This document shows, one piece after another, positions 10,778 to 33,520 of a stretch of DNA of 64,000 nt. This DNA comes from Hexactinellida sp. DTS-2022 (Eukaryota; Porifera; Hexactinellida), in contig JAPNXP010000002.1 of the NCBI GenBank assembly GCA_028753945.1, positions 8,866,001 to 8,930,000 of the forward strand. Direction: 5' to 3'. The notes beneath the pieces are model-generated. The model was not told the origin of the DNA and searched no databases. It saw only the letters and a program-made list of their open reading frames with translations. Every line of letters begins with the position of its first letter. The first letter of the stretch is position 1. Both the position numbers and the translations under genes were made by a program.

Positions 10778-11127
10778 TATCTAGGGCTCCCTACCTGACC
10801 AGATGAAATATACATGTGTGTGTGTTAATTATACTTGTACTCGTGTGTTGATATATACTTGTGTGTGGATTCTACTTGTACGTACTCGTTGTGTATATTA
10901 TACTTGACTCGTGTGTAACTACTTGTAGGTTGTATTGAAATATATGATATGAAAATTACAATGTTTGCCAGGATGAAATTATTGAATGACAACTTTATAA
11001 TAATGTACAAAATTATTACATGATGTATACGGTAACTGTATACTATGTTTTGATAGTATTATTGTATTTCTAAAGGGGTTGTGGGGTTTGGCTTGTGCGA
11101 AATATCCAACCATCTGTGAAGTATTAA

Positions 11128-11355
11128 GAATATCTGGAGCTGTTCCACCAATCTACATACCAATACCTGGTGGAGGAGTTTGGCATGGAGGAATATAAGG
11201 CCTACAAGCATTATGTGAAGCTATACGGAAGGAATTACCGATGGGGCCACAAGAAGCTCACCTTCAAAGAGAGAGACGAACTTCGAGCACGAAACACCCA
11301 CGAAATATCTGTGTATTTACCAGCAGACAGGCCAATCAATCTTACTGAATATTAG
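11128..11355 (+). CDS. Small unidentified reading frame, right arm copy
   Basis: About 75 codons are open after a TAA, with the first ATG at 11185 and a terminal TAG. The product contains KHYVKLYGRNYRWGHKKL and ends after PADRPINL. Its composition (aromatic and charged residues, little low-complexity) is more protein-like than the surrounding frames. It lies about 350 bases downstream of the piggyBac cysteine-rich domain in the same orientation. I do not recognise it. It may be an exon or fragment of another element, or chance. Confidence 0.25.
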   Translation, partial: EYLELFHQSTYQYLVEEFGMEEYKAYKHYVKLYGRNYRWGHKKLTFKERDELRARNTHEISVYLPADRPINLTEY

Positions 11356-12330
11356 TAATACAATGTATTTCGATAGAGGAATGTAACATGTACCAATTCA
11401 TTGTGCTGTCTATTATTACATATGACATGAATTTATAATATGGCCAGATAATTTGCATACAGTTTTACAGTATTTCCTATGAGGGTTTCGGCGGTGTCCA
11501 CAGAAAAGCCTCATTTACCTAAACTTCCGAGTATATGCGTTTGAAAATGTTCATTTCCAGAATATGAGGTAGAGTCCGAGTTGGGAAGTAAGCTCCCCGG
11601 AAATTATAGGGAGACTGCTATACACTCAGTAGCTGATTCCAAACACATATAGTAGATCGATTAGAAATGGAGACAGAGAGTAAATAATTTGGGATAATAA
11701 TAGCCATTTGGTAGCATTCGCAACCACACAAAAGTTTATGTATGCTGCATTCGTTCCATTTATATATTAGCAAACATAACTTTCAAAAAGCCACTTGATC
11801 CGGGCCATAAAAGGCTCTCCATACATATTAGCCTCAGTTACGTTCAAACATGAAATACCTGGCTAGATGTGTAACTATTGTAATTGTAATGTATTTCACA
11901 GAATGTATTTTAATGAAGAGTATTTTCAATATGAATCAAAAATACTGATTAACAAGTCACAAGATAATAATCCAATCCAATAATGCAATAAGTACTACAA
12001 GATGTCTATAGCATTCATTAAGGATGCTTGCTTCGAAAAGTGTATTAGGTGTATGGGTAGTTTCACCAATAATGTGAAAAGTGAAGTGTCAGAGGTGAAA
12101 CATAAATTGTAATTCACCTACTAAGATTATAAGCAAACTTCAATAACTTGCTTAGATCTATTTTTGGCATGCTATTGAATAACTTGAACTTTGGCTTCCT
12201 ATGTCAGTAACACTGTATCATCAGAATTGACTGAATTCTTTCTACTTGAAATATGATAGGTGTAACTCCCAGAATTACAGTGATTAATCATTACTACAAG
12301 TATTAAATTATGCAAGCACTTCAGACTTAA

Positions 12331-14497
12331 GGTCCAGGTATGCTCTAGAAAAATGGAAAATTTCGCAAAAAACCCCAAAAAGGTCTTTTTCGTTTTTATT
12401 GTATTTTTGGATTGTATTGATATCCATGTGTACTCCCAAGAAATTTCTAAGAAAAACTCCATATATCTTTCAAGTTTGACACATTTTCGTGACCTCGTCT
12501 GGGATAAATAAAAAAATAAAAAAATAAAAAAATTAAAAATTAATAAAATATTAATTTAAAGGGAAATTGCTGTTGGCACAGGTGTAATTTTTGATTTTAG
12601 TTAGTTCAATATAGGATTTATTTTAGAATAATTGCAAATACAAATAAAATTGCTTTTGGTACAGGTGTAATTTTTGATTTTAGGTAGTTCAATATAGGAT
12701 TTATATAGGAATAATTGCAAATACAAATATAATTGCTTTTGGTACAGGTGTAATTTTTGATTTAGGTAGTTCAATATAGGATTGATATTAGAATAATTGC
12801 AAATAAAATAAAATTGCTTTGGTACAGGTGTAATTTTTGATTTTAGGTAGTTCAATATAGGATTTATATTGGAATAATTGCAAATATTTAGGAAATTGAT
12901 GTCGGCACAGGTGTAATCTTTGATTTTGGTTAGTTAAATATAGGATTTATATTAGAATAATTGCAAATACAAATAAAATTGCTTTGGTACAGGTGTAATT
13001 TTTGATTTTAGGTAGTTCAATATAGGATTCATATTGGAATAATTGCAAATATTTAGGAAATTGATGTCGGCACAGGTGTAATTTTTGATTTTGGTTAGTT
13101 CAATATAGGATTTATATTAGAATAATTGCGAATACAAATAAAATTGCTTTTGGTACAGGTGTAATTTTTGATTTTAGGTAGTTCAATACAGGATTTATAT
13201 AGGAATAATTGCAAATACAAATATAATTGCTTTTGGTACAGGTGTAATTTTTGATTTTAGGTAGTTCAATATAGGATTTATATAGGAATAATTGCATATA
13301 CAAATATAATTGCTTTTGGTACATGTGTAATTTTTGATTTGAGGTAGTTGAATATAGTATTTATATTGAAATATTTGCAAATATAAGGGAAATTGATGTC
13401 GGCACAGGTGTAATTTTTGATTTTTGGTAGTTCAATATAGGTTTATATTGGAATAATTGCAAATATAAAGGATTTTAATGTCGGCACAGGTGTAATTTTG
13501 GTTTGGTAGGTAAATATAGGGATTCATATACGAATAATCAAAATACAAAGGGAATTACTGTCTGCACAGGTGTAATTTTAGACTTTTGGTAGTTCTATTT
13601 GGAAATTTTATGGAAATAATTGCAATTACTACGAAAATGCTCTCGGCACAGGTGTAATTTAGTATTTTGTGTTCAATATAGGGATAATTGAAGAATAATT
13701 TCAAATTTAAATTGAAATGAACACTATTGAATGCGCAGGGCCGTGGTTATTGGGTGGAGAATTAGATTGGGATCCCAATAGTGCTCCTAACAATTGTGGG
13801 GTCACGTCAACTTGGTGTTGGGTGAAGAGATAAATACCAAACTGGGAGGGAGAACGGAAGTGGCTTTGGAGGTGCAAGTGGTTGTGGCGGCGGCTAATTC
13901 ACTTCAATACACATAGTGAGTTAGAATTTGAATGAACAACGTGAATTTACTAGTTTACCTCCTCTATACTTTATCTAAAATTTTATATTCATATTTCAAA
14001 AGCCTATATCTCAAAACTAACATTTTCAGTTTTGTGTAATAGGTCATTTTGTCAATTTTGGTCGTGGAATCAAAAGCTCAACGGTTTCGGATAGATCTCG
14101 TGAAGATACAACTAATGAGTGCAGCGATTTATTCTATTATGGATAGTTCATGTGCTTTTTGGATTTTGGATCAGGAAAATCTTCATTTGAAAGTCGACAT
14201 CACATAAAAGTATTTGAAATCCAGAAAAATCCAGATATTCACAATTCCTGCACTCATTAGATTTATTACATCCAGCTAAACACAATCATTCAATAATATT
14301 ATTGGTCTTGTTCATCTTTGCTGATTGATCTTCTACCCAATAGTGGTAAAATTAAAAAATATATTTTTCCTCTCTTAGTATATATGCCAATATTATTGTA
14401 TTTTTGGCATCCTGAAGAAGAAGTATATACGCTGTAAAAAATTGAGTTAAATTGGGTAAATACTTTTGGTAGAAGTGCTCTAGAGTATACCTGGACC
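12331..14497. mobile_element. Nested TTAA MITE carrying a satellite array
   Basis: The ends are GGTCCAGGTATGCTCTAG (left) and GGTCCAGGTATACTCTAG (right, complemented), flanked by TTAA at 12327-12330 and 14498-14501. The outer parts (12331-12480 and about 13990-14497) match the shorter family members at 47300-48500, 50726-51424 and 51906-52780. The 2.17 kb length results from the array at 12579-13690, which those members lack. Confidence 0.88.
12579..13690. repeat. Tandem array, 82-83 bp unit, about 14 copies
   Basis: The motif CAGGTGTAATTTTTGATTTT starts at 12579, 12662, 12745, 12825, 12908, 12990, 13073, 13156, 13239, 13322, 13405, 13487, 13567 and 13649 with minor variants. Spacing is 80-83 bases throughout. 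Units alternate between GGTACAGG and CGGCACAGG subtypes. Open reading frames across it are by-products of the periodicity. Confidence 0.95.
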
Positions 14498-15087
14498 TTA
14501 AAAAATGTTTAGAACATATTCTTTTATTTGATGCAACAGAAATTGTCAAAAAAAGGTCAAAAATTGACATTTTTGACCTTCTTCCCCATGTAGCACATAC
14601 ACCAATTGTTCATTATGTCCAAAGTGCTTGCAAAATAAAGTTTACACCATATATATATATGCCTGGAATTTTCAATGTTTGCTTCAGTACTTCAACATTA
14701 AACAATCCATCGTTTGTCAATAAATCCCGTTTTGAGTAAATTAAGGTTAAAGATTATCGGAAATATTCTAGCTAATATGCACGAATCAAATGTGTATTAT
14801 GTAATAGTATCCTTAGTATAGACTAATATAATACTCGACGATAGTTTTTAACATTGTATTTTGAATAATATGTAGTTTTTGGCATGAATTGGAAGAGTTT
14901 ATAGCAGTCCACGTTCTTTTGGGACACATTTTAAAGCAAAATGTAATAAAATAATTATCTGAAATTGTTATTGTTGTCATTATACATGTCTGTTTACCTT
15001 TGGTTATATATACTTAGTCCATAGTGTATAAGATTATATGAATAAAGCTTATGGGTTTATCATATTATAGTTAATTGACAAAAAGAT

Positions 15088-15162
15088 ATGCCAGGTTTGG
15101 GCATCGAACCCAGGAACACTTGCATACTGTTCCGATATGCTACTAACTGAACTACTGGTACT
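15088..15162 (-). ncRNA. tRNA-like segment (possible SINE or tRNA relic)
   Basis: On the minus strand a B-box-like GGGTTCGATGCC (near 15099-15111) lies about 30 bases after an A-box-like TAGTTCAGTTAGTAGC (near 15140-15155). A partial acceptor stem (CCAG with CTGG) brackets them. The anticodon arm does not fold into a normal 7-base loop, so a functional tRNA is unlikely. A tRNA-derived SINE head or a tRNA pseudogene fits better. It lies between the end of the nested MITE and the end of the 12022-15444 element. Confidence 0.4.
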
Positions 15163-16004
15163 TCTAAATATTATAAATTGTATTATATTCCATATAAATG
15201 GGATATAGAATATATAACACGTAAATAAATGTCAATAAATGTGAATAAATGTATATATATATTCATTTAATTGCCAAAACATCAATAATTACGTCACTAA
15301 AATGCCCCCTGTAGGGAATGGAGTACTGATTTTTGAAAATTTTCAATTCCAGGATAATTCCATGATATAGTTGTAATATATTTCACACTAATCTCGAAAT
15401 TTCACTTTGTTGATAAATTCCCCAGAATTCCGAAGCAAGCATCCTTAATATATGATATACTTCATCAGCCTATGGTTGGCTGAAACCTTATCCAGTGGAG
15501 TCACTGCGTGAATCTTAGATCTATGATGTCATGATTCTCACACAAGTATCCGGCTGACTTCATTTCATTGTCTGCCAATTCTTGATTGATATAAGCAATT
15601 TCTACAACAGATAAATGGCCCCATTACGGGATCAATGGTTTATCTAGAAGCGCGCGACACACGCTTAGAGGCACACCACAGCTTGCATCTAGGTACACAG
15701 CAACATAGGATATTGTGTTGTTCGAAATAACAATTGTTTGCAATTGATATAATAGAATAATTCAGCAGATATTTACAAAACAATGACATATATTATGTGT
15801 ATAAACACTGTCCGTTGCTAGGTAGCTTGGTCATTCTGGAACGTAAAGTAAGAGAAGGAGTACTCAGTAGTGGGTAGAGGGTCAATGAAGTAGAGACTCT
15901 CTCCCAATGAAAACTCCTAACAGTCTATCTAAATACAAAAACAAGTAAAAACACTTCTAAGTGAAACGAAGACGATAAACCAATTGAATTACTAATTTGT
16001 CAAT

Positions 16005-16250
16005 GTGTTGAAATTAGATAATTTCGAAACTATGCTTGACACAAAGAGAGTTTGCTGGCCATTAGAGCTTTTGAGTTTCATTATAGCTTGTAACAAGCAA
16101 TTAATACGAAGAATTATCAGCTCAAGGAAATATGCCAAAACAATTTTGCTAACTAATGAAATTCATCAAATGATCAAACAGACCATGGTTGGATACGTAG
16201 ATCCTAATTGGAATTGCCACGCTATTCACACACAATTCCTAGTATATTGA
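16005..16250 (+). CDS. Unidentified 81-codon frame
   Basis: This frame starts MLKLDNFETMLDTKRVCWP. Its counterpart on the minus strand of the left arm (1200-1445) is also open with two substitutions. Conservation between the arms reflects recent duplication rather than selection. No family is recognised. Confidence 0.15.
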   Translation: MLKLDNFETMLDTKRVCWPLELLSFIIACNKQLIRRIISSRKYAKTILLTNEIHQMIKQTMVGYVDPNWNCHAIHTQFLVY

Positions 16251-16328
16251 CGCGGTATTCAATAGCTAGATTAGTCATATAGCAGGGTGATAAGTGAATT
16301 AATAAGTTATCACTAACAGGACGAGTCG

Positions 16329-16373
16329 GATAGGATAGGATAGGATAGGATAGAATAGGATAGGATAGGATAG
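16329..16373. repeat. GGATA pentanucleotide microsatellite, right arm
   Basis: This is the reverse-complement counterpart of 1083-1121, with about nine GGATA units and one GAATA variant. Confidence 0.85.
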
Positions 16374-17034
16374 GAAGGGAAACTTCAAAATGTGTTACGT
16401 TTACGAAAAACAAACACAATTAGTGGAAGATAGTTATTACTAACCAAACGAATTTGGATAATTTCTATATAATGTATTGTGAGTGCTAAATGGTAACGCC
16501 GTATAGATTTCAATCCTAAGTATATGGAAATTGATTACATATTTTTACACACTTACATGCGATTCGCAGATAATAGTAACCTTTTCAACTTTCAAGAGCA
16601 GTCAGTACATTGCAAGAATCATTCTGGATATCTTCGGATGAGCAGAAGTACATCAGTCGTAACAACTCAAGACACAGGTAAAACTTTTATTTGACAATAT
16701 ATAAAGCGTTAGTCATCAACCAATACTGAATTGAGCATCTGAAACATGGCTGTGGTTATGAAATTAGTGTACTCTAACTCTTGCTGCAGATGAACTCAGG
16801 ACGAGTAGCTCAGCGTATCCCAACATAACCAACTGCCCGTTACAGTTAGCCCTTTGCGTCCCAATCAAAGAAATATGCGTAGCAACTTTCTATTGTAAAG
16901 CTTAATGTCTAGTCAAAGCAAATATAAATATGTATAGCGTATAATAACAAAAATAACACGCATTCAGACAGATAAACAGCTTCAGAGTATTGAGCTGTAT
17001 TGTATATTTGTGTGTAATCGAATTGAAATAATAT

Positions 17035-17310
17035 ATGTATAGAGAAATGAAGAGAAAATGTAATGTTCGGTGGGTTCCAACCAGAGGTTTATCCAGCATT
17101 TTATTGGCCGCCACTTTATCATGGAAGGTAAAAATTCTACGACACCCTAAAGTTATCAGCCATAATACATATTCGGTATATTTCGATGATGCGGCATTAT
17201 ATGGAGGATCTAAAATTTGTACGGAACTCAAACAGGGATTTATCCACGATGTCTGGGCCAGAAAATCTGGACAGACACCTGAAGCAACATTTGCTGTAGA
17301 GCACGATTAG
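17035..17310 (+). CDS. Unidentified 91-codon frame crossing the arm edge
   Basis: This frame starts MYREMKRKCNVRWVPTRG and runs past the end of the inverted duplication (17284), so its last codons are absent from the left-arm counterpart (166-408, minus strand). A 14-base insertion near 17256-17269 also changes the reading relative to the left arm. No family is recognised. Confidence 0.15.
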   Translation: MYREMKRKCNVRWVPTRGLSSILLAATLSWKVKILRHPKVISHNTYSVYFDDAALYGGSKICTELKQGFIHDVWARKSGQTPEATFAVEHD

Positions 17311-17894: not shown

Positions 17895-18712
17895 CAGCTC
17901 AGGTCCAAATATCCCGCTCAGGTCCAAATATCCCGTTCAGGTCCAAATATCCCGTTCAGGTCCAAATATCCCGTTCAGGTGCAAATATCCCGCTCAGGTC
18001 CAAATATCCCGTTCAGGTCCAAATATCCCGTTTTGTTCTATCTGTCCAGTATTGATTATGTTATTCTCTTAGACCCGTTTGTCTTATACACCTTTGAGGT
18101 CCCAATATCCCGTCAGGTCCATATATCCCGGCCAGGTCCCAATATCCCGTCAGGTCCAAATATCCCGTTTTGTTCTATCTGTCCAGTATTGATTATGTTA
18201 TTCTCTTAGACCCGATTGTCTTATATTCCGTTCAGGTCCAGATATCCCGGCCAAGTCCATATATCCCGATCAGGTCCAAATATCCCGGCCAGGTCCAAAT
18301 ATCTCGTAAGGTCCATATATCCCACTAGGTCCAAATATTCCATTTTGTTCTATCTGTCCAGTATTGATTATGTTATTCTCTTAGACCCGATTGTCTTATA
18401 CACCGTTCAGGTCCAGATATCCCGTCAGGTCCATATATCCCGACTAGGTCCAGATATCCCGTCAGGTCCATATATTCCGACCAGGTCTAGATATCCCACT
18501 AGGTCCAAATATCCCGCTAGGTCCATTCGTCTCGCTAGGTCAAATATCCCGTTCAGGTCCATGTACCTTGTTCAAGCATTTACTCCCGTTTATGTTCATT
18601 AATCCTACTGGGTCCAAATATCCGGCCAGGTCCAAATATCCCACTAGGTCCAAATATCCCACTAGGTCCAAATATCCCGTTCAGGTCCAAATATCCCGTT
18701 CTATTCTAGATG
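17895..18712. repeat. Minisatellite (about 19 bp unit) with higher-order insert
   Basis: Many tandem copies of CAGGTCCAAATATCCCG joined by two or three variable bases. The run is interrupted by a longer block starting TTTTGTTCTATCTGTCCAGT at 18031, 18168 and 18343, with a degenerate copy near 18689. This makes a two-level array. Open frames across it come from the periodicity and are not genes. Confidence 0.95.
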
Positions 18713-18720
18713 TCCAGTAA

Positions 18721-20130
18721 GGTTTAAGATGTTCTCTTAGGCCCTATTTTCTTATTCGTTGTATATTGCCATTCTCAATTCATTAAATTCTCTCACTATT
18801 TGATTATGATTTTTTTCTAAAAAATAGTGTACAGTGCTTTTTCAATCAAGTCCAAAAATCCCGTCTAACCGATGTTTATAGTAGTAAACAAGTACTGCCT
18901 CAAAGACAACTAATATATTTCGATTTAGAGTGAATATCTAATACATTATAACTTTTTAACTAGAAATATACTACTCAATTGGTTAAGAAATTCCAACTCC
19001 TCCCGATCACTTTCTTGGTCATATACTACTTTAGCTTCGGAAGAGTTACTTCAGTTGGTGGTTGAGGTAATTTGAATGAGCCAAAACAGATAGCTCGGGG
19101 ATCATAAGTGAGGAATAACAGCTTGTCAATGTTTGGTCAGGAGCCAAACATTGAGAAGATATCCCCCTGCGAAACATACTCAGAACATCACCTCATAATC
19201 ATATTTGAAAATTACTTGTCAGCAGTCAACAGGGACTGTATAAAATTGGAAATGCGGAAAATTGACATATGTTCATACTTTGTAGTTTAGAAAGGCAACA
19301 ACTACTCCTCTCCTCCATAGGTGCAATTAATTAGTATCATGACTAACCCCGGCCCAGGACAAAATTATTCCACCCCGGCCCCGGCCCCGACCCGGGCAGA
19401 ATTCGGCCCTCGGTCGATTCATAATTGGGATGGCAACTGCAGTTTCCTTTATATCGCGGGTCCCTATAGATATTTCAAACAGGAAATATATCGGAGAGAC
19501 TAGACAGTGCGTGTTCTTGTTGTGGGTAAACAAATAATTCGGATATTACAGCACGACTAGGTATTCACAAGCAGCAATATAAGGTGTTCAGTTCAAAATT
19601 ACTAAAAAGAGAACAATTATTCTCTGATTTGCATACATGATATAATGTCATGAACGAAACTAATTAGTGATTGTTCTAAGCTTGGAGATTTGCGAACCAT
19701 CAGACAAAGAACTAACGATAGTTGGCCCGGTTGCCCAGCTGGATATCATCTAATGCATGCCACTACTTAGAAAAGCCTGTTTTGTTCAAATAATTTGTAG
19801 AGCCTGACGGGATAGCAACACCAAACCCTGTAATACATAGCTGTCTAAACCAATTCGATACAAAGAGCAATAGTCGCTTTTGCGCCCACCTAGAGTAGTT
19901 TCGCCCCTTTGAACTACGTTGTGTTTATCCAAAGTGTTCTGAAAATCGAAATTTGAACCATCTACAGTAGAACCTTCTAGGGCGCCGGCGGCACGGGTGC
20001 ACCGGGTGCACGGTGCACTAGTTGCTCCGGTCAATTTTTTTTCCCAAAAAAATATTACTCAAAATTAACTAACAAACTACCATAATAATCAATAGTTATC
20101 TCTAACACAACTCAAAAATCATAGATAACT
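18721..20130. other. Unassigned segment
   Basis: No supported gene. It holds a GC-rich patch at 19345-19415 and another at 19976-20025 (GGCGCCGGCGGCACGG), which resembles a hAT terminal region and lies just downstream, in minus orientation, of the hAT relic at 20142-20393. Confidence 0.4.
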
Positions 20131-20141
20131 GAATCAAAAAT

Positions 20142-20393
20142 CTACCGAAAATATAACTTAAAATCTACCGAACACCTTTCTCTACCAGGTTTTATATTTA
20201 TGATTTCATTGGCCACTTTTTCGAGCTCCAAACTATCCAGCTCATCTTTATGGATGGCACATACTGCCAACCATGTGAGACGGGCATCTGACATTGAACT
20301 CCGCAACACGTTTTGGTTTATCATTTCGCATTGATCGCATGACCCGTGTTGGTATTTACAGGAGTGATACGGTGATACCAATTCAATAGCCAT
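20142..20393 (-). pseudogene. hAT transposase C-terminal relic
   Basis: The frame contains VLRSSMSDARLTWLAVCAIH followed by an acidic, Leu-rich tail. This resembles the end of the C-terminal dimerisation domain of hAT transposases (the LRSTMSQERL-like stretch before the tail). The domain's preceding Trp/Phe and catalytic Glu segments are absent. The GC-rich terminal-like patch at 19976-20025 would be its 3' end. Only a fragment is present, so the assignment is tentative. Confidence 0.4.
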
Positions 20394-20571
20394 TGAAGGT
20401 ACCTGTTTTGGTGGAAATATTTGCCCGTCTTATCTGTAAATTCGCCGAACCGTGTTCATACCAACGAGGGTTTACTGTATTCAAAATAAGCCAATACAGA
20501 GTTTCGGAAACGAAATGGATAATCATAAATCCATAACCTCTTTGATTGATGGATAGAATAAGAACATTGAT

Positions 20572-20838
20572 AATTATTTGCAGATTACCTTAGTTGGACA
20601 TAATTATAAAAATTAAATTGGATTCCTACCACAATCATTGAATCTGAATTAACAAGGTGTAACCACTTGAATGGTGGCTCTACTGTTCAGTTGTATTACC
20701 ATATTTGGGCACAAATTTCCAAACTAATTTGCATATTACCTTATTTAGACAAAATTGTCAGAATGAAATTGGATTCCTACCACAATCATTGAATCTGAAT
20801 TAACAAGGTGTAACCACTTGAATGGTGGCTGTAGTGTG
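20572..20838. repeat. Direct repeat upstream of the third piggyBac copy
   Basis: A segment of about 110 bases starting near 20578 (GATTACCTTAGTTGGACA) recurs starting near 20730 (TATTACCTTATTTAGACA). Both units contain GGATTCCTACCACAATCATT and end AACCACTTGAATGGTGGCT. The repeat lies directly before the TATA motif, so it may be a duplicated promoter-proximal or subterminal block of the element. Confidence 0.85.
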
Positions 20839-20848
20839 TCCCAGCTCC

Positions 20849-20857
20849 TATATATAG
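20849..20857 (+). promoter_or_regulatory. Candidate TATA box of the third piggyBac copy
   Basis: TATATATAG lies 89-97 bases upstream of the ATG at 20946 and just after the duplicated block at 20572-20838. Position and form match the motif before the right-arm piggyBac copy. Confidence 0.5.
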
Positions 20858-20945
20858 AGGATCATTATTTGCAAACATTACCAATTACAGTCACTCAACA
20901 GTTCAACCTCAAGCAACATCTGCAACTACAACTCTAACCAATCAG

Positions 20946-23900
20946 ATGGCAAGTAAATCCAACCTTACCACACACTCAACATGGGACCAAGACGACGATC
21001 AGCTGGAAGCTGATGCCAATCTCAGCCTTGAACCGGGCACTGCCACGCAACCCGTTGATCAGAATGATTCCAACGATGAGTGACCTTTATCGGAGGATAG
21101 TGGGGACGACGATGAACTCTACGGTCTATTACAGGAGGCCCATCCAACTGACCCAACTCTCAGCTCAAATACTACGACGATGGCCTCGACAACTGACCCG
21201 AGACTTAGCCTATCATTCGCTAGCGAGGATGTGTCAGAGGAATTACTAACAGCCAGCAGCCCCCTGTTCAGTCCTGCTAGCCAATTAGCTGGTGTGACCT
21301 TGCCACAGTTACACATCAGCTCGACCCCTCAGACAGATGTGGGAACCACACAACACTTTACCTTTCCTCCTGCTCAAACAACTTTCGATACACGGGCCAT
21401 AGGAAAGCGGAGCTCAAGCCCATCCGCACTCAGCAGCAAAACAAAACGTAAAGATTTCCGCTACAATCGTAAATCCCAACCAGTCAAACCCGTTACAGCC
21501 GTCACTTACATCGCTGAACAGGTGCAACTGCAAACTAGCCCCCAGCCAAGTCCACAAATACAGTGTACTCCGCATAATTGGGACACCGGTTAATCGGGAC
21601 AGCCGCTTAATTGGGACAACTCACCAAGAACCGAATCCTTTCCATAGAAGCTAATACTAAAGATTTCGGTTAATCGGGACAAACTCAACAAATTGGGTAC
21701 AAAATTGTGCTCGCTTAATAGAAAATTAATATTGATCAAACAAATTTTAATAATCTTGGTCAATTCTCATCAAGACATAACAACATATCTAAATAGGACC
21801 AATTTTATTATTGAATTCCGTATATTCAAAATTAACCAGGGATTATGAACTTTGGTTCAGGTATAGTTTAAAACGGTCCACATAATATTAAGGGTCATTC
21901 TATGGGTTTGAGTAGAATCAAGTGTCCGCAGGCATTGGAGGAATCGTTGTAACATGTTTAAACTAAATTGTTGTAAATCGTAGGTAGATATCTACTCTAC
22001 AGAATATTTTCGGTTAATTGGGATCTCCTCTTAATTGGGACAAGAGGCCTGGAACAGACGTGTCCCAATTATGCGGAGTAGACTGTATTCACAATGCGAA
22101 CCTACAATCCTGATGATGATGATGATAATTATGATAATTATAGAATGCCCGCCTACTATCCGGAAAAATCAAAAATCTGGGAACACCGGCCCATCTTCAA
22201 GCTCGATACCAATCTAAAATCACCCACAGGACTACCACGTGTAGATCTCTATGTATACGCTATTGATGCTAACACGGAAACAAAGTCACAATGTGAAAAG
22301 AAAAAGTATCGCAGACTATTGACCCTAAGAAACACCCCAATTGAACGATTCTATCCTGAGATCTGGGACGCAGAGCACAAACAGCTCATAGGGAGTTCGA
22401 TCAAATCCACAGAATATCTCCAAGCACTGGCTTTCTTCCAGGAGCCATATGAAGATGCTCTATTAGTGGACAGAAACTCACTGGGTAATATCCCCAAGGT
22501 AGCACCAGCCATTCCTGAGCCACTCAATCAGCTACACCCTGATCCACCCTCCCAGCAGCACAAACTGTCTCAACAAGGACAGTACCAACTCAAATGTAAA
22601 GAACCGGTGGAATTTTTCGATGCCATCGATACGCCACACCAAATCGAGACCATTCTCCAGCAGACCATACTATACGGCAACCAAAAGGGGCTACACAATT
22701 GGCGAGTGCCCACCTACAACGAGATGCGCTGCTTCATAGGACTCCTCCTTTGGACATCGCTGGCAAAGTTCCCAAATCGTCGAGCCTATTTCCATCAATC
22801 AGAAATCTACAATCTGCCACATTTCCAAGCACACACATCGCGGAATCGTTTCGAGCAGCTGATAACCATGTTTGCACTTCACCGACAATCAAACACTATC
22901 TCAAGACCTCAGCACAGCGAAACGTTTTGAGGCAAAACTCGCCGACCAGCTCACCGATGTCAATCGTAACTCCGCTAAACTTATTACCCCTGCAAGAGCA
23001 CTCTCCATTGACGAAATGATGGTAAAGTTCTACGGAAGGAGTGTGCTGCGTCAATACATGCCCGCTAAGCCGCATAAATACGGAATAAAGTTATGGGCAG
23101 TTGCCTGTGCATGCTGCGGCTATTCCCTCACCCAGAACATCTACCTCGGAAGCAGTGTACTGTCAGTGGGAGGGCGAGATGTGGTGCTACAACTAGCCGA
23201 ACCCTACTTCGAAAAGGGTCATGTCATCTACTGCGATAGGTTCTTCTCCCATCTCGACGGGGGGGGGGCTCGAGATGGCGGCATATCTTCGCTCACGACA
23301 AACCGGCATGGTGGGAACAGCAGATCTAACCTCACTCGAGCAGGATCTGAAATACCTGGTCACCAATATGCACCCTCTAACCTGGGCATACAAATGGTAC
23401 AATTATAAGGCAAACATCACTCATCGTACAAGGCAAGGTGAAGAACGAAAACTTCAGGCTGAAGAGCCGGTGTGCTTACTCGTGTGGTATGACAAGAAGT
23501 ATCGCACCACCGACAAAAAGGTGGTTTTCATCACTAACTGCTTACCCGCTATTCCAACTGATCCGGAACTTCAATGCCACCGAAAGAACATCCGGACAGA
23601 AGACGGAAATTACACCCGAAAGCTGATAGCGAGTCCACCTATTGTCAAAGCATACAATTATAGAATGGGAGGGGTCGACAGGCATGACAGACTCGTGGGA
23701 CAACATGCAATTCCTCTAACATCCAAACGCGGATATATCAAGATATTCTTCCACATACTAGACTCAGCGATGGTCAACGCCTGGATCCTATTCAAAACAG
23801 CTAAGAAGGCACAAGGTATGTGGAATACAGCTGCAGAACGTAGACACAATTGGCATGGTTCAAAGAGTGTGTCATTCTATCTCTCTGTGGTAATTTACAT

Positions 23901-24270
23901 CTCGTAAAGTGACATCAACCGTCCAGTTGTCAAAGCCACTCTTACCCATTGATTCGTTGGGCAACATAGTACAGCATCAGATACAACCGACCAAAAATAT
24001 ACCCGGGTTCGAAGACAAACAAGTCGGGAGGTGTCTCATTTGCAGAAAATTACAGCGTACAGCTTGCATCAAGTGTCAACAATTTTACTGTTACGAATGC
24101 GGTTGACAGCATCTCGTGGATCTTTTAGAGCAACACACAAAGGAGGCGACTGAAACCGGATCCCAGGAACAAGTCATAGTGCCGCCGCCAAACGAACCCT
24201 TCACTAAACCCGAGGGTCTGAGCTCCAGCGAAAATGATCCTGATTCACCCGAGGATGACTTCGAATATTA
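20946..24270 (+). pseudogene. Third piggyBac transposase pseudogene (divergent copy)
   Basis: This is a full-length but broken piggyBac transposase related to, and clearly diverged from, the two arm copies. The ATG at 20946 opens an acidic N-terminus with an in-frame TGA at 21081-21083. A TA-flanked MITE interrupts it at 21561-22085; removing the MITE and one TA leaves the frame continuous. The core carries SIDEMMVKFYGRS, VIYCDRFFSHLD and GGVDRHDRLVG, so the catalytic Asp residues are kept. Frameshifts occur near 22865, at a G-run near 23258-23267 and near 23845. The C-terminal cysteine-rich domain (CLICRKLQRTACIKCQQ, CYECG) is cut by TGA at 24104-24106, and the remaining frame ends near 24270. 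It is non-functional. Confidence 0.92.
21561..22085. mobile_element. TA-flanked MITE (pogo/Tc1-like) inside piggyBac
   Basis: The ends are CAGTGTACTCCGCATAATTG (left) and CAGTCTACTCCGCATAATTG (right, complemented), flanked by TA at 21559-21560 and 22086-22087. It is 525 bp. Internal AATTGGGAC motifs recur in both orientations near the ends. TA target and CAG start fit a pogo/Tc1-mariner MITE. Confidence 0.88.
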
Positions 24271-26317
24271 GCTGGTCACGCTCGCGAGAAGAACACTGAA
24301 TTCACGCGGGAACCAATGGACGATCGCAAGCTGACCCATTTAGAGATTGGATTCAGTCGTATCATAAATTATTACAGTAGTCTGTATAGTAGTATGATTT
24401 ATTACTACAGTATGCATTAACTCATTATACCTAAACGTACGTATATTGTAATTGTCTATCAGAATAATTTGAATAAATACACAAGCAAACTGTACCTTCA
24501 CTAAATGTTACGATAGGGGATAGAGGTAACAGGTATACATATAGCGAGCTCAGTTTTTCGAAATTCCCCAAAGAGACAAACAAGCCTGCCAGAAGTCTAT
24601 CATGAGATCATTATAAAAACTAACATATGCTCTAAGTGCCTCAATTTACACTCAGGACAAGGCCAACATTCGGAGGAGTGTGGTTCACATACGAATCGTA
24701 ACAATAATATATCATTAGCGAGAGCACAATCAAAATAATCATAACTCACCAACACACGTGCCCAGTTGGATGATAAACTGTCAGAGGTGTCACCTGCCAA
24801 GATTGATTGCTGAGGTACATGCTCCCACACGGTTGAGAGACATGAATGAGACACATTTGCAAACCACAGTCAATGTAATGACAGCAAATTAGACACAGCC
24901 AGGTTCTTTATCCCGTTAAGCGGCTACGCTTTGTCAAGCAGCTCTCGTCTAAGGTGGCACAACCTCCGATCAGGACTGGATCCGTCACCCAACATTCATC
25001 GCATATCTAATTGGCACCCATATACTCGGGGGAAATAGACACACAAAGTTATATGCATTCAAATACCAGACTGAAACTGTTACCAAATGGTAACATTCCT
25101 AGGGAGGATGGTACCGGATGTGTGCCTCTGTATAGTAGGCTGATGCAATGTAGTGACAGCAGAAATAGCATAAAGTGTGATACTAACCTAAACTTGTCAG
25201 GAATAGACTTACTCCCCAACTACTATAACCTGTTACGGCGCAAACAGGTCACCTGTGTCAATACTATAGGTGACAATAATAATTATTCGAATTGGGAGTA
25301 CAATTACACCACAAAAGAGATACTATCTCACAAGGCTCACAAGGTGCTCTACAAACAGAAATCTAACTCTCATATACACGGGCAAATACAAAATTTATAC
25401 TCATTTCGCCATTTTGGGATCAAAAACGAGCAAGAGTATTGATAACACGGTTGAGGCTTACCATATACAGATGTTCACATTAGCGCGTGCCAATAAACGT
25501 ATTTTTACGATCATCCATATGAATCTGAATTGTGAACGTGCAGAATTTTCGAACGAGCCATCTATAAGAGTGTTCCCTATTGAAATGGATGACTTCGCTT
25601 TAGCAATATAGCTGAAAAAAATGTATGTACATACTGTCAATTGACTGGTTCGCTATATTTCCAAACCCCCAAAGCAAAATGAGTTTTCTAATACCAATCA
25701 TTATAAATGTACAAGTATAACATAGCAAGATTACCAGGATAAAAACTTAGGGCTAACAATTGCACATTGCTAAAAGCACATAAAAGAGTATTATGAACAA
25801 ATATGTAAACATAGTAAATATTACATAACTGATAGTTTAGTTCCAGTCAATTAGAAGATCTTGCGTGGGGATTGAGATATCATATATACAAGTCCCGAAT
25901 AAGGATGACTAAAGTGGAATTTCACAATTACGATATTGAGATGAATTGTATGACAAAACGCTAGTAGAGATAATAGATTTGCTCATCGAAGCTCGTATCG
26001 AGGGTATATAGTGGGCAGAGAAGGCAGATGGATGGAGGGATGAGCGCCCTATCAGAGTTGCGAGAAATAAACTTGAGAGAGAAGGGTCTGGGTTGAGATT
26101 TATAAGCAGGGGGTAGAGCAAGACTAGGGCTAATGTGGTGGCCCATCAGTTTACATAATCAACAGTGGGAACACCCCGGCAGACAGGGCAATGTCCTCCA
26201 CTCAAGGATGAGTAGATTTATAAATCAAATAGAGTCGGGAAGCGATACAAAAGACACACATTTCGCCAATAGGGGCCAAAAACTATCTCTAGCTTTGAAC
26301 GCTGAGTGAATGGTTCT
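24271..26317. other. Unassigned segment
   Basis: I see no recognisable gene. Open frames at 25011-25442 and 25270-25611 overlap each other and have no motif I can name. A stretch near 24884-25010 also reads as plausible protein but is short. This could be an old retroelement, but no reverse transcriptase or nuclease motif is visible. Confidence 0.5.
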
Positions 26318-26576
26318 AAGAGGAGGTATAGTGTCAGTCAGGTTGGGTTATAAACTCTCGATAAAGCTCTTGTGTACAAGGACTTGGCCGGAAACCAGAC
26401 AGGGTGAGGTACACGAGCATCTAACATGAGTAATCAGTGTTTATAGAGGTATACTGTCAGTCAGGTAGGGTTAGAAGCACGCGATAAAGTCCCTATGCAA
26501 TAGCACTTGGCCGCAAAGCGAGACAGGAGTGATACACCAGCACCTAAAATTAGCAATAAATGCAACGTAGAGGTAG
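26318..26576. repeat. Two tandem units of about 130 bp
   Basis: Two adjacent copies share GAGGTATA-GTGTCAGTCAGG, then GATAAAG, CTTGGCCG and GAGACAGG/CAGACAGG motifs in the same order, starting near 26318 and 26447. They have diverged, so the duplication is old. Confidence 0.75.
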
Positions 26577-26758
26577 AGAAACAAAATTTGAGATGAGTTA
26601 AAAATCTTATAACACCAATGGCATTTCTACGTGAAAAAAATATTAACACCTGTGGCACTTATAGTTTTAGCTGGAGAGCCGTCACGAAGAAAGAACAAAT
26701 AAACAATATCTAACAAGGGCAGTGAGTTTAGAACTGTGCCACTAAATATAGTCGGCCC

Positions 26759-26972
26759 CAGGGGTGGATCTTGGGGGGGAAGGGTGCGGGGGGGTGCGCA
26801 CCCCCCCCCTAAATTTATACTATTCGAAATTTCATTCTTTTTTTGAATTGTAGTCCTATTTTGTTGGCCGAGAATATTTAATGAAAAATCTCATCCAAAA
26901 TTTGCACCCCCCCAAACTACACCCATCCAAAATTTGCAATCCCCCAAATTTTAGTGGCTAGATCCACCCCTG
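26759..26972. mobile_element. hAT-type MITE, 214 bp
   Basis: The ends are CAGGGGTGGATC on both sides in inverted orientation. The 8-base flanks are GTCGGCCC (26751-26758) and GTCGGCTC (26973-26980), a 7/8 target duplication typical of hAT. The interior is rich in C and G runs. Confidence 0.88.
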
Positions 26973-27316
26973 GTCGGCTCAGTGAAAACCCATTGTTACC
27001 AAGGAATGTTATCAGAACCTCAGAGCAAGGAGTAATTGTCAATAAGAGTCATAGGATCAACAAATTTGAAATGAGAAATGTTTCTGAACAATGAGTTGAA
27101 TAAGATAGCAATGCTTGACAGAGATAGAAGGAAGTAAAGTCCCAACCAGATATATAAAAACTAATTATGGCCTAGAATAGAAAATATGTAAGTAGTAACA
27201 TAGATATAAAACATTCAGAAAAAGTGTTTATCGTGCTCAATGGAATATTATTATGATAAAATAGAATGGTGATGGAATTTGAACTCCTTACTCGTTTATA
27301 ATAATTATCAAATCAC

Positions 27317-27751
27317 GTGTTATCACGTGTTGAGACTCACATTGACAAGTATTCGGCAATATATATAATCAAGCCGACTAGAAAATTCCTAAACACTATG
27401 CAAGCGCATATAATTGATCTGCAGCGACTAGTCAGGCTGACTAAGAATTCAGACACACTAAGGGTGCTCCATGATGCCATCACTGCGGCTAAAGCTCAAG
27501 CCCGCGTTGAGGCCCGACAGAGAAGAGCCATCCGAGAACAGGCCCGTAAAATACGGCGTCAGAATACTTCGCGGCTCCAGAATAAGCATAGTCGTGTGGT
27601 CTGGCGAAATATCAACGACATGCGGGTAGAATCCCAGAACTCCATCCATCTCTTGCCTGGAATCGGCACCCAGGACACCAGGGAAGGGTACCTGGACGCC
27701 CACTGGAAGGCGCAGCGCCAACATCCGGACGTGAGTTCAACTGTTGTATAG
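27317..27751 (+). CDS. Unidentified 144-codon frame upstream of the ribozyme
   Basis: This frame has a strongly basic, Ala/Arg/Gln-rich central helix-like stretch (KAQARVEARQRRAIREQARK) preceded by LQRLVRLTK. Its end lies 90 bases before a hammerhead ribozyme motif on the same strand. I do not recognise a domain. It could be part of a retroelement, for example the edge of a Penelope-like or retrozyme-type unit, but no catalytic motif is visible, so function is unknown. Confidence 0.35.
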   Translation: MLSRVETHIDKYSAIYIIKPTRKFLNTMQAHIIDLQRLVRLTKNSDTLRVLHDAITAAKAQARVEARQRRAIREQARKIRRQNTSRLQNKHSRVVWRNINDMRVESQNSIHLLPGIGTQDTREGYLDAHWKAQRQHPDVSSTVV

Positions 27752-27772
27752 TATATGTGTTAGTTACTTGTG

Positions 27773-27822
27773 GTGTAGTATTCACTATGACGGATTTCGA
27801 TCTCGACCTCAGAATACTACAC
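27773..27822. repeat. Perfect 11-bp inverted repeat
   Basis: GTGTAGTATTC (27773-27783) pairs with GAATACTACAC (27812-27822) around a 28-base loop. It lies 18 bases before the hammerhead motif and may be a structural part of the same RNA. Confidence 0.85.
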
Positions 27823-27840
27823 AATGTTTGTGTTGTAAAG

Positions 27841-27896
27841 TGCTGTCCAGTGTTGTTACTACACTGCTGATGAGACCTAGAAAGGTCGAAACAGCA
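27841..27896 (+). ncRNA. Hammerhead ribozyme motif
   Basis: All elements of the hammerhead consensus are present in order. Stem III pairs TGCTGT (27841-27846) with ACAGCA (27891-27896). The cleavage triplet GTC ends at 27847. Stem I pairs CAGTGT (27848-27853) with ACACTG (27861-27866) around a 7-base loop. The core CTGATGA lies at 27867-27873. Stem II pairs GACCT (27874-27878) with AGGTC (27883-27887) with an AGAA loop, and GAA follows at 27888-27890. All three stems are fully Watson-Crick paired and both core strings are invariant matches. With stems I and II closed by loops it is a type III arrangement. Hammerheads of this kind are known in Penelope-like retroelements, retrozymes and tandem repeats of animals. 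Predicted self-cleavage is after 27847. Confidence 0.9.
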
Positions 27897-28092
27897 AATA
27901 TTTGTTATTAGAGATAATGTAATCAGATTGAGTATAGCGTCCATGCAATTTATTTTGGTGCAACCATCAAGCTTGATGATGTGCAAAGTCGCTATATAAA
28001 TTTTTTAGTGTGTCCGGGAAAACTTGTATCTGACCGAAAAATATAATCAAAATTTTGAACGGCTAACTCAATAAATATTATGATTTACTGGA

Positions 28093-28385
28093 GGGGGGGG
28101 GGGGCGTGGGGGTACCTGATCGAATAAACACAATACTATTCGAATAGGTACCCGTAAGTAATGTATTGAGGGTTTTGCTGATCGTATAAATGTTATAATA
28201 TTATTATGCCAGGTAACCGGTATACGTATGTATATTATATATATATATATATATACATATAGGGATTAGCTGATCGTGTAAATGTTAGAATATTAATATT
28301 CTGCCAGGTTACCCGTAATTATATAGAGGGTTTGGCTGATCGCATAAATATTATAATATTATTCGACCAGGTAACCGGTGAAATA
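28093..28385. repeat. Tandem repeat with palindromic TATAATATTAT core
   Basis: Three to four units of about 90-110 bases share GCTGATCG, TAAATGTTA, an AT palindrome (TATAATATTAT or GAATATTAATATTC) and CCAGGTAACCGG-type ends. A TA dinucleotide run at about 28229-28253 lies inside. The array starts about 200 bases after the hammerhead motif. Confidence 0.75.
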
Positions 28386-28678
28386 GCAATATATAACATT
28401 GTGTTAGCTAACCGTGAAATCATGGACAAAATACAAGTAGTTAACCAACAATGAATGTCGTCTCACAAGTTAGCTAAACGTGTATAGAGTGAAATACCTT
28501 AGTTACCATGAAAATTCGTCATCCAAAATAAGGAGAAATTCCTTGATTAGAAGCCAAAAATATCATCGCCAATTCAAACAAGAATAATCAGAATAAAAGT
28601 AGTTATAAATATCACAAAATATTTTAGAAACCATTATCAGAATGAATGAAAGGATATATAGGTATATATAATCTAGAG

Positions 28679-28796
28679 CAGTGGTCTTCAAACTTTTTTC
28701 TCAGCGTACCCCCTGGCAATTTTTTAACATTACGCGTGCCCCCATGAGAAGCCTCGCGTACCCTAGGGTACGCATACCCCAGTTTGAAGACCACTG
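28679..28796. mobile_element. hAT MITE, 118 bp
   Basis: The ends are CAGTGGTCTTCAAACT and its inverted partner AGTTTGAAGACCACTG. An exact 8-base target duplication ATCTAGAG lies at 28671-28678 and 28797-28804. The termini are of the kind seen in Charlie/MER-like hAT MITEs. Confidence 0.93.
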
Positions 28797-28804
28797 ATCT
28801 AGAG

Positions 28805-29392
28805 TAAATTATTCAGAATTATCATACTAAATCCAAATAAGGTGGACATGAAAGGCCTTTGAGCCAAGTGAATTTTATAGAAATAGAAACAAAAATTGTA
28901 TTTTCTTACAGATCAGAACACGTACAATAAGAATGCAACTTATATAAAATTTTATAACTAAATTTTTTCGAGGGCACTAGCGAAAATTTAAACCATGGAT
29001 GATATAAAAGGGGGGTTATGAACCAAGGATCACAATGGAGAGATTCAAAAATCAAAATAATACGTTCAGACTTTTCCTATTATTGGGAAATATATATATC
29101 TGAATTGCATGATATAATCACCAAACAAACATTGAACGACGTTCTATATATTCATTCAAAAAGATATTATAAAAGTGAATTATTCACTGAATTAAGGGGG
29201 TTTTCGTTTTCACAAGTTTTGCCTTATAATTGGATTAGTTTGTTGATAAAAATATTCAGACGGGTGAAAATCCAAATAGAAGATAATATAAATATATGTG
29301 CCAATCAACTAAACCCAATTATTTATAACATAAAAGTTAGAGTGAATTTAATATTCCACATATTACTCAAAAATATGGCGGGCCGTGTACGG
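28805..29392. other. Unassigned segment
   Basis: There is an open frame from 29018 into the adjacent TTAA element (to 29482), rich in Ile, Tyr and Asn. Because it crosses an element boundary and has no motif, I treat it as chance. Confidence 0.5.
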
Positions 29393-30613
29393 TTAACTGT
29401 TGACTGCCTAACTGATACACGTTGTGTCAGGAGGGAAACATGTCGATCGCATCAATCAAATTTCGACAAAATTCGGATTTAGACATGGTTTTGTATTCTC
29501 AATCAATTTCAATCAAAAAATCAAAATTTTCAGAATTTGTTGTGATGACGTAGCATAAAAGTGAACTGCTCCACTTGCCACCCTCTTACTTTTGTAGATT
29601 AGAAATGTGAAAATCCCTACCGTGGGAATACCCATAAGAAGATATTAGACTAATCTTATCTGTTTTAGGATATTTGGGTAGACTAATATAGAGTTGTGAC
29701 AGATATCACACAAATATATGTATATTTTCGTATTCCATGGTTCATGAAATACAGATTTATAAATTTTTTTAAAATGACTTTACTTTTGTTTCCTGATGCA
29801 GAATTGTTCAAATTTTGAGATCTGATAACTAATAAGATAGTCGTATTTGTACCTGTTTAGAAACAAAGGATTACTTATACACTAACCGGCCAAAAGTATT
29901 TGAACAGAAATAATTTGCATTTAGACATTTGAGGTTATACAAGCATAATAACATTAGTAGATGCTACAAAATGGCTATTTACATGAAACGATATCTAAAG
30001 TAATATAAAACAGCAAAAATTTCCAAATTTACATTTTTATGGCGGCGCATAGACTACTATATAATACAGATGGGAAAGCAGCCGACCAACGAATTAAAAA
30101 GAGAGGCCAGTTTATGATTTTCACTCTAATACAATCTATGCTTATAGAACTTGTGAATTTGACTTAATATAGGGTAATAGAGTATGGTAAATCCATTAGT
30201 AGTATTTATAAGATTCTTAGAACTGCGGTTTAGGCGCCATTTAATGATGACGTCAGCGACAACTAATTTTATATTAAATTGACATGTATGTATCTAAATG
30301 TATTAAAATGTACTTGTACACCAATCGTATTATTTATTTATTTTGCACTTATGAATGTTCAACAAATAATATGCAATATAATATATATATAGTCATATAA
30401 GATATTAAAATAGCAAATTGGCTTCTACCGGAAAAACTATAAGATTATTTTTAACACGACCATATGCTTAGAAAATATATAATATACAAGGAACAAACTA
30501 GTCAACATTTATATTAATTAAGTTTAATTGTGCACTTATTTTATTTAAACTCCGCCCCTTGTTCAAAACCTCGACTACTTTATCTTCCATAGGTTGTTAA
30601 TACGTATATGTTA

Positions 30614-30712: not shown

Positions 30713-30896
30713 CAGGTAAACCTCCCAAAGCGGCACCCATCGGGAGAATGATTTTGTGCCGCTACTCGGAGGTTGCCGCTTTGGGAGGTTGCTCGTAAGG
30801 TAAAACTCCCAAAGCGGCACCCATCGGGAGAATGATTTTGTGCCGCTTCTCGGAGGTTGCCGCTACTCGGAGGTGCCGCTTTGGGAGGTTTACCTG
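30713..30896. mobile_element. TA-flanked MITE in the P-element leader
   Basis: The inverted ends CAGGTAAACCTCCCAAAGCG are flanked by TA at 30711-30712 and 30897-30898. It contains an internal duplication of about 85 bases (AAAGCGGCACCCATCGGGAG occurs twice). It ends 64 bases before the THAP start codon and adds an artificial N-terminal extension to the open frame. Confidence 0.85.
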
Positions 30897-30960
30897 TATG
30901 TGTATTTCTGACTTACTGTATAAAACTTTTCCTAAATCAATCCTTAGATCTCATTATCTT

Positions 30961-33520
30961 ATGCCATTCAAATGCTCTGTCGTACATTGTCATTCGGGAT
31001 ATTCCAATGGACCTAGTAAAGTTATGTTTGCCTTTCCAAAGCAAGATGAGCTTCGACAGAAATGGGTGAAGTTTTTGAATCGAGAAGCTTTCACAATTAC
31101 TCAGTCTTCACGAATATGCATCCAACATTTTGAAGAAAAATATATAATTCCCCATCCATTAAAGACGAGGCTAAATTTGAAACTCAGCCCTATCCCAACA
31201 ATATACCCTTCTTCTATCCCTAAAAGCCAGCAGGCTATTATCTCTCCACCTATTCGAAAAAAACCTATTGTGCGGATTTTTCAGAAAGATGAATTACCCA
31301 TTTTTCAATCTCGATCAAAATGCGAAAGTTTACAAGATATCTTAAGCCACATAAAATCAGCGATCGAGTATCGAGACTTTTTTCATTCTTCTACTGAAAC
31401 AGATCTTACTATTTATCGGGTTGAAATACAATCAGGTGTAGCTACAGTTATGGAGTGTATAAATATCAGTTCTGATTTACATGTGAAGCTTAGTTTTGAA
31501 GGATTCCCTATTCCTCTTCCAGATTATATATCGAATTCTAAAGGTTCTAAAATTCGTAACTTGGATATGTTGACAAATTTACCCATCTATTGTCGAAACA
31601 TCACTCACAATTATGATATTGAACCTCTTAAAGATCTGTTGCGACTCGTATACTATTGCCCTAAAGGAAAGTGTAAATACTCTACCAGTACTCTTCGATT
31701 TGCCCTTCAATTGCGCTATACTTCAAATGCAGCTTATAATCTATTACGTCAATACATGCCGCTACCTAGCCAGAGATTATTACGTTGTTTAAAATCCGAC
31801 TCCATTGATAGTATAAAAGCTTTATCTAAATTTCGTGAAGATGGTTTTTTTGGAAATGATGTCGTAATTCTTCTTGATGAAATGCATCTACAGCAACAAG
31901 TACAATTTGACGGACAAACTATTATTGGTTGTAATGAAGATCTCCAAATGTACAAGAGCATACTTTGTTTTATGGCGATGTCTCTCACTAATACTATCCC
32001 CTTTATCATTAAAGCTATTCCATTATTCACTATATCGTCCAAAATTGTAAGTAATGGTATCCTTAATTGTCTGGAAAATTTAACCTATGAAAAGTTTCAC
32101 TCGTGCTGTTATTTCTGATAATCACCGAACCAATATTTCTTCGTTCAACTATTTGATGAATACTTATCCAGTTCCTGAAAAGAAATACTGTATGATCAAT
32201 CCAAATAATTCTCTAATTGTTTACTTGCTTTTTGATACAGTTCACCTAATCAAAAACATTCGGAATAATCTTATTGGTGCTCGGTTCTTTCAAATTCCAC
32301 AGCTGCAATTAAAACTTCAAGAATTAACTCTTATAGTTCCAGCAGGGAATGTATTTTGGCGTAGTCTTCACAAAGTTCATGACGCAGACCACTCTCTCAA
32401 TTTCCTTCTTCGAAAAGCTCCATCTTTAAACTACCAAGCACTTCACCCAGGAAATAACAAACAATCGGTTCCACTAGCTCTTGCTATTTTTGATAGTAAA
32501 ACCTCAGCTGCAATGCGTGAATATCTCAGGGATGAAGATATAGTAACTCCAGCATTCTTAGAGCTGGTAAACATGTGGTGGTTGCTTGTTAATTCCAAAG
32601 AACGTTTTCATCCGCATCACTTTGGAAATGCTATTAGTCCAAATACGCTTAAAGATAAACGTACCTTTCTACTGGAAATGAACAATTGGTTATCAACTTG
32701 GAAACTTTCGAAAAAACTTGGTCTCACTAAACAAACCTTTGAAGCATTAATGAATACAAATGCCGCTATTGCTGATCTATCATATGATTTAATCACAGAT
32801 GGCTTTCATTACGTATTAACCGGAAGATTACAGACCGATCCATTAGAAAGGAGATTTTCTCAATATAGACAAATGAGTGGCGGTCGTTTTCTAGTGAGTT
32901 TAACTGAGATACTGCGTTCTGAAAAGATAATAACTTACCAGCACCTTCTCAAACGCGATATCGACTTTAGTGGCTTAATAGTGTCTTCAACTGATGAAAT
33001 AAATAAGCTAATTTCTGATTTTTTAATCACATTACCGACTGATTCTATTGACCTACTTTCTTTATCAGATAACTCTAAACATATTGTTGCTTATGTAGCA
33101 GGGTACATCTCTCATTCGCTCATACAACGTTCCAACTGTGATGTTTGTTTTTAACTACTTCAGAAAGATCAGATGAATAATTCTTATATTGAGATTCTTA
33201 ATAGAGGGGGGCTCCACTTACCAACAGTAATCCTTTACCAGTATGTAGAAACTGCATTTTGTATACTCGAATCGTTTGAATCGAAGATATTGGCAACTAA
33301 ACTTCCAACTAAACATGTAATGCTCCACCTACTTGCACAGGTATCAGTTGAATGGGATTCTGGTTTTGTTTGCGATCTACATGCTACTGATGGTTGTAAG
33401 AGAGTTCATTCGATTGTAACTAATCTTTATCTTAAAGGACTTTCCAATGAAGTTAGTGAAACTGCTAGAAAGTCTCAAGTTGATTCATTTAAGGCCAAGA
33501 AACGTAGACTACCAGACTGA
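30961..33520 (+). pseudogene. P-element transposase with THAP domain, two lesions
   Basis: The likely native start is the ATG at 30961, which begins a THAP zinc-binding domain (MPFKCSVVHCHSGY, then FPKQDELRQKWVKFLNR and RICIQHFEEKY). An upstream in-frame ATG at 30832 lies within an inserted MITE. The P transposase core follows: ILLDEMHL (near 31870), DTVHLIKNIRNN (near 32235) and DPLERRFSQYRQMSGG (near 32836), which carry acidic catalytic residues and the conserved His/Asn motif. A +1 frame change occurs near 32087-32118, and one in-frame TAA lies at 33152-33154, after which the same frame continues to 33520. About 850 codons overall compare well with P/THAP9-type proteins. With only two lesions it was probably active recently. 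Confidence 0.93.

Follow-up and report, generated by a model that had tools for sequence, protein, structure and literature searches.

A candidate type III hammerhead ribozyme behind a small open reading frame in a low-copy repeat of a hexactinellid sponge genome

The locus

The window, by which we mean the whole 64,000-nucleotide stretch of DNA analysed here, lies on contig C11 of a genome of which 112.4 Mb in 18 contigs were searched. Among conserved genes looked for in this genome, mir-10, for which PMC11521371 reports two copies in Xenoturbella bocki, gave one match below cutoff (E 0.27, 22.9 bits; two bacterial controls gave signals, both likewise below cutoff), and Wnt gave no candidate in a search with no control signal; a Casc1_N exon on C3 points to a ciliated eukaryote. 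The features with which this report is concerned are as follows, in window coordinates.

22082..24106, plus strand: piggyBac-type transposase, frame-broken, with a Cys-rich end and a stop at 24104-24106
26757..26972, no strand assigned: short insertion at the unit's left edge, with TCGGC on either side (from copy comparison)
27398..27751, plus strand: 117-codon open reading frame (ORF) for a basic protein with no family named, ATG at 27398
27661..27896, plus strand: stretch of about 236 bp that is best kept between diverged copies, comprising the ORF end, hairpin segment and ribozyme (from copy comparison)
27773..27822, plus strand: hairpin between ORF and ribozyme, with an 11-bp stem (27773-27783/27812-27822)
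27841..27896, plus strand: type III hammerhead ribozyme with predicted cleavage after 27847 (from motif, fold, descriptor scan, Rfam and aligned copies)
27841-27846/27891-27896, plus strand: stem III, 6 bp, the open stem of the type III form
27847, plus strand: last base of the cleavage triplet GTC
27848-27853/27861-27866, plus strand: stem I, 6 bp with a 7-nt loop
27867-27873, plus strand: core CTGATGA
27874-27878/27883-27887, plus strand: stem II, 5 bp with a 4-nt loop
27888-27890, plus strand: core GAA, with the pairing A next (GAAA)
29373..29396, minus strand: right terminus of the large repeat, TTAA followed by CCGTACACGG when read inward

A complete type III hammerhead motif

The initial annotation had described a canonical hammerhead ribozyme at 27841-27896, and a complete type III hammerhead with an intact core can indeed be read from the plus strand there: the core CUGANGA / GAA-A / NUH and three stems are present, and stem III is the open one. 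As the core and the GTC triplet are intact, cleavage is predicted after 27847. The stem and loop sizes match those given for type III hammerheads in the part of PMC7936874 drawn on here, and the word canonical holds for the core, the stems and the loop sizes. The minimum free energy structure of the bare motif was exactly the hammerhead (z -2.7 for 63 nt and -2.1 for 56 nt). A descriptor scan of both strands for type I and type III forms, run again for type III, found this to be the single hammerhead in the 64-kb window. In 300 dinucleotide shuffles of the window a relaxed type III descriptor gave 2 matches in total and stems of at least 6/5/6 gave 0, which bears out, for the strict form, the earlier claim that such a match is essentially never expected by chance.

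Comparison of the window with 4227 Rfam families gave one match at E ≤ 1, to RF00008 at 27845-27892 (31.7 bits, E 0.0079), and no family reached its gathering score in the window, that of RF00008 being 48.5 bits, which is a curated threshold and not a structural feature. The proposed check of an Rfam match above threshold was thus not passed, though the sole match was in the right place and of the right family. At the level of sequence we regard the hammerhead observation as confirmed despite the sub-gathering Rfam score, because eight places in the genome keep the motif, and its identity is borne out by motif, fold, Rfam family and kept copies alike. If functional, the ribozyme of the window would work as a hammerhead.

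Copies of the ribozyme in the genome

A 65-base stretch containing the ribozyme was found at eight places in the genome at 97-100% identity, five of them on C11 and the others singly on C1, C6 and C12. Two other copies of the unit (L027 and L028) retain only the part before or after the ribozyme, the remainder having been cut off by other DNA, and the copy at C11:4.64 Mb is without the ribozyme. Across the eight aligned copies 99.5% of 202 pair cells were standard pairs. An A/G variant at 27849 in stem I keeps its pair, the C6 copy has a C/T variant at the cleavage base 27847, which presumably still leaves a permitted NUH site, and the C12 copy shows the one break in stem II. No pair had changed on both sides in the eight aligned copies (0/28 and 0/59), and there is therefore no covariation evidence from this alignment. 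RNAalifold run on the eight copies predicted stems I and II, with stem III replaced by a competing pairing of its 3' strand.

The open reading frame and the hairpin

The ORF ends 89 nt before the ribozyme and is open from ATG to stop in two of the ten loci inspected (the window and L019), the remaining ones being frameshifted, stopped, cut or without a start. Differences from the window ORF were most frequent at third codon positions in L024 (47/87, versus 29/87 and 30/88) and in L027 (42/83, versus 26/83 and 26/84); L021 showed a slight third-position excess (7/87, versus 4/87 and 2/87) and L025 none (10/74, versus 8/74 and 11/75). Taken together, these counts make past coding of the ORF likely, though not proven. 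The predicted protein matched no Pfam family at cutoff, with four weak and unrelated matches below it (TOP_N, and PEHE, DUF1400 and TetR_C_12, the last three in one protein each); it had no relative in the PDB (best E 0.09, to a ribosomal protein), and 183 pattern matches in viral contigs yielded 0 that were confirmed. The ribozyme is whole even in copies with a broken ORF, suggesting that it may not serve that ORF.

Between the two, the hairpin is fully paired in all six rows that hold both arms (of eight aligned), with one change from a U-A to a U-G pair. At the left edge of the unit, the insertion at 26757-26972 is missing in the copies on C6 and C12 and in that at C11:7.43 Mb. A tRNA scan gave 0 genes.

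The host repeat

By sequence comparison, the host unit is a low-copy repeat made up of the 117-codon ORF, the hairpin and the ribozyme, and it appears to lie in the right arm of a large transposon-bearing repeat. The piggyBac-type transposase of the latter is on the same strand as the ribozyme and is split over several frames, its part at 22082-22927 matching the Pfam family DDE_Tnp_1_7 (E 1.1e-14). The right terminus has four exact copies in the genome, each with different outside DNA, and three further copies that have 2 mismatches lie on C1. A left end of the large repeat was looked for and not found, and TTAA was seen at the right end only. Positions 23640-29396 are common to L019, L020 and the window at 97-98% identity. 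Both loci also match window stretches leftward to 3419-3663, where the fetched DNA ends, and both are without approximately 18755-23640, including the 5' part of the transposase.

Homology to the unit of the window begins near 26747 in both L024 and L027, neither of which has a BLAST match to the transposase part of the window, and this suggests that the unit may predate the large repeat or be distinct from it. No reverse transcriptase was found by Pfam in the ten window ORFs scanned, which are part of its reading frames. The unit seems to fit no named family among those tested.

Uneven conservation along the unit

Conservation was followed in a longer alignment of seven of the eight copies, the C12 copy being left out. 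L024 (C11:12.82 Mb) and L025 (C1:10.04 Mb) were counted over their homologous part only, as L025 has no BLAST homology before 27123 or after 27943. Their ribozymes are identical (0/56 differences), in significant contrast to the ORF body at 27398-27660 (71/224, Fisher P = 2e-8), the stretch at 27240-27397 (24/143, P = 4e-4) and the adjoining 3' part at 27897-27943 (6/46, P = 0.007). The contrast with the ribozyme was not significant for the ORF end at 27661-27751 (3/66, P = 0.25) or for the hairpin segment at 27752-27840 (5/88, P = 0.16).

Between L024 and the window the ribozyme differs at 1/56 positions and is again better kept than the ORF body (107/263, P = 2e-10) and 27897-27943 (6/47, P = 0.045); the counts were 21/154 for 27240-27397, 16/91 for the ORF end and 5/88 for the hairpin segment. 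The closer copies at C11:7.43 Mb and on C6 gave no significant contrast between ribozyme and ORF (P = 0.3 and 0.7). As the stretch directly before the ribozyme is also well kept, the conserved block is wider than the ribozyme itself, and selection on an RNA would be the simplest reading of the kept block 27661-27896.

Other type III hammerheads in the genome

At least 64 further type III hammerheads scored above the Rfam cutoff and more strongly than that of the window (64 of the 68 candidates scored, from 12,319 flagged in a first pass; the hammerhead of the window was not among the 68). Many of them lie in other short dispersed elements in which the hammerhead is near-invariant (L001-L008, L049-L055). 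The first eight of these loci, L001-L008, were compared with the block of the window and showed no BLAST similarity to it. One family is a discrete 325-bp unit (24-348 of L048, from a 346-base query) with at least 51 matches, 40 of 393 candidates having been scored; 16 of the 51 matches listed are at 97-100% identity, and they fall on at least 15 of the 18 contigs. The ends of the unit are TG...CA. Inspection by eye pointed to a possible 4-bp duplication at L003, and several other loci showed no clear one. The units are mostly single, with tail-to-tail arrangements in L004, L048 and L049 and a tandem arrangement 486 bp apart in L048.

Plant retrozymes have an LTR of about 330 bp and a 4-bp duplication, according to the part of PMC4918200 used here, and the 325-bp units resemble the solo LTRs of such elements. 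The dispersed elements may represent a type III retrozyme of a new kind. With its many type III hammerheads in short elements, which are partly young, the genome is well suited to studying how these ribozymes spread and are reused.

A proposed role for the ribozyme and alternatives to it

On balance we favour the reading that the motif is a genuine type III hammerhead, located downstream of a small ORF for a basic protein in a low-copy unit of a piggyBac-type (TTAA) repeat, and that it cuts plus-strand transcripts. If the plus strand were transcribed, the RNA would cut itself after 27847, 96 nt past the ORF stop. One product, upstream of the cut, would be a coding RNA with a 2',3'-cyclic phosphate at its 3' end, past the 11-bp hairpin; the other, downstream, would have a 5'-OH and contain the body of the ribozyme. 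Cleavage would in this way define where the ORF transcript ends, where a downstream RNA begins, or both.

Folding predictions for the motif in context bear on how such cleavage might proceed. With at least 11 upstream nt included, an inactive fold is predicted to lie 2.4-5.5 kcal/mol below the best active fold (2.4 for 27830-27900, 2.6 for 27770-27900 and 5.5 kcal/mol for 27661-27990), in an energy model that omits tertiary contacts. The inactive fold pairs 27867 with 27894. For 27770-27900 the hairpin upstream is formed in the best active fold, and in the inactive fold of the same segment the 5' strand of the hairpin (27773-27783) pairs with the stem I side of the ribozyme. Exchange of this strand between its hairpin partner and the ribozyme could, on these models, act as a switch. 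A bolder proposal, which we hold to be distinctly unlikely, is that a lineage of DNA transposons uses the hammerhead as a working part: self-cleavage downstream of a protective hairpin would yield mRNAs that are not polyadenylated and encode a new basic accessory protein, with 27773-27783 as the switch.

Retroelements and RNA agents are the main known sources of genomic hammerheads, and a hammerhead kept behind an ORF in a repeat of DNA-transposon type would extend the roles of natural self-cleaving RNA. We found no report of a hammerhead ribozyme in piggyBac or another DNA transposon in the literature searched, subscription papers being outside its scope. According to PMC7229834 and PMC7936874, type III hammerheads are described mostly from plants and from circular RNA agents, and those of animals are mostly type I, termites and flies being exceptions that have type III. 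The initial annotation had left the host as a Penelope-like element, a retrozyme or something else, and it is the last of these that appears to fit, as a small-ORF unit in a piggyBac-type repeat. Penelope-like elements and Terminons, the latter very large, also carry a hammerhead on a mobile element, but in the excerpts of PMC7229834 and PMC6431247 used here these are minimal type I ribozymes in retroelements, whereas that of the window is type III and stands beside a piggyBac-type transposase. A Penelope-like host is unlikely because those elements carry the minimal type I form (PMC7229834, in part). The type I family RF00163 had 0 matches genome-wide in a search that gave no control signal.

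Retrozymes call for closer comparison, as a relic of a circular-RNA retroelement with a type III hammerhead, perhaps like a solo LTR, might have been inserted here and be carried passively by the large repeat. In PMC4918200, plant LTR retrozymes are non-autonomous elements that have a PBS, a PPT and LTRs, of about 330 bp in Jatropha, in which the type III hammerheads are found, and they are like the window in having a type III hammerhead in a repeated, apparently mobile unit; they differ in that the window has one hammerhead, no LTR pair that could be seen and an ORF upstream. Metazoan non-LTR retrozymes, as described in PMC7229834, likewise place a hammerhead in a repeated genomic unit, but theirs are type I, in short tandem repeats with RNAs of about 170-400 nt, and that of the window is type III and non-tandem. 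The presence in the same genome of at least 64 type III hammerheads above cutoff, many in short dispersed elements, suggests that circular-RNA elements may exist there and so lends such a relic some credit. Against it, the window holds neither a second copy of the block nor a second hammerhead, so that a retrozyme in tandem or paired-LTR form is not supported (a comparison that a solo LTR would also fail), the block has no BLAST similarity to the L001-L008 elements at E ≤ 1e-5, and a passive piece should drift like its surroundings, yet the ribozyme is identical where the ORF body differs at 71/224 positions. We consider a passive relic unlikely. Much the same chance is given to gene conversion or exchange among copies having kept the block 27661-27896 alike with no present function. 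That five of the eight ribozyme places are on C11, and that the ORF end and hairpin segment are kept too (3/66 and 5/88 against 0/56 in the ribozyme), is what would be expected of it, but the same ribozyme is also present on C1, C6 and C12, and it has changed less than the adjoining 3' part whether L024 is compared with L025 or with the window (P = 0.007 and 0.045).

A small ORF for a basic protein with a type III hammerhead after it is also the arrangement in the HDV-like agents of toad and termite (PMC7936874), and the unit could on that account descend, as an endogenous copy, from a circular RNA agent, deltavirus-like or other. The toad and termite agents, according to the same source, have an atypically long helix I, ribozymes on both strands and a rod-like circular RNA, none of which was seen in the unit of the window: the minus strand of the window is without a hammerhead, and 26973-28081, with 60% of it paired (z -2.3 against 25 shuffles), does not stand out for self-pairing in the manner of a rod-like RNA. 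HDV_ag had 0 matches in the genome, in a search with no positive control signal and for antigens that are very divergent, and none at E ≤ 10 in three copies of the ORF, the protein of which lacks both a Pfam family at cutoff and a PDB relative. We judge an origin from such an agent to be highly improbable, and the reading of a hammerhead that cuts transcripts of the ORF unit remains the one that we prefer.

Other repeats in the window

Several other repeats were noted in the window. Positions 199-5485 and 8537-17256 form a large inverted repeat that is 99% identical, each arm of which carries a piggyBac-type transposase gene (3647-5526 on the minus strand and 8473-10376 on the plus strand). 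The copies at C11:5.0 and 10.8 Mb hold parts of both arms and skip 12021-15438; a satellite-like tandem array with offsets of about 83 and 165 bp occupies 12562-13712. A degenerate repeat array of ATATCCCG-like words is found at 17900-18755, and in the C11:5.0 and 10.8 Mb copies an array matching it stands immediately before the breakpoint at 23640. To the right of the large repeat, 30799-33520 encodes a P-element-like transposase with a THAP domain, flanked by a 232-bp inverted repeat (30036-30267/33595-33826, 97%), and 45302-47278 is a hAT-like transposase ORF of 658 aa that matches DUF4371 and, weakly and below cutoff, Dimer_Tnp_hAT.
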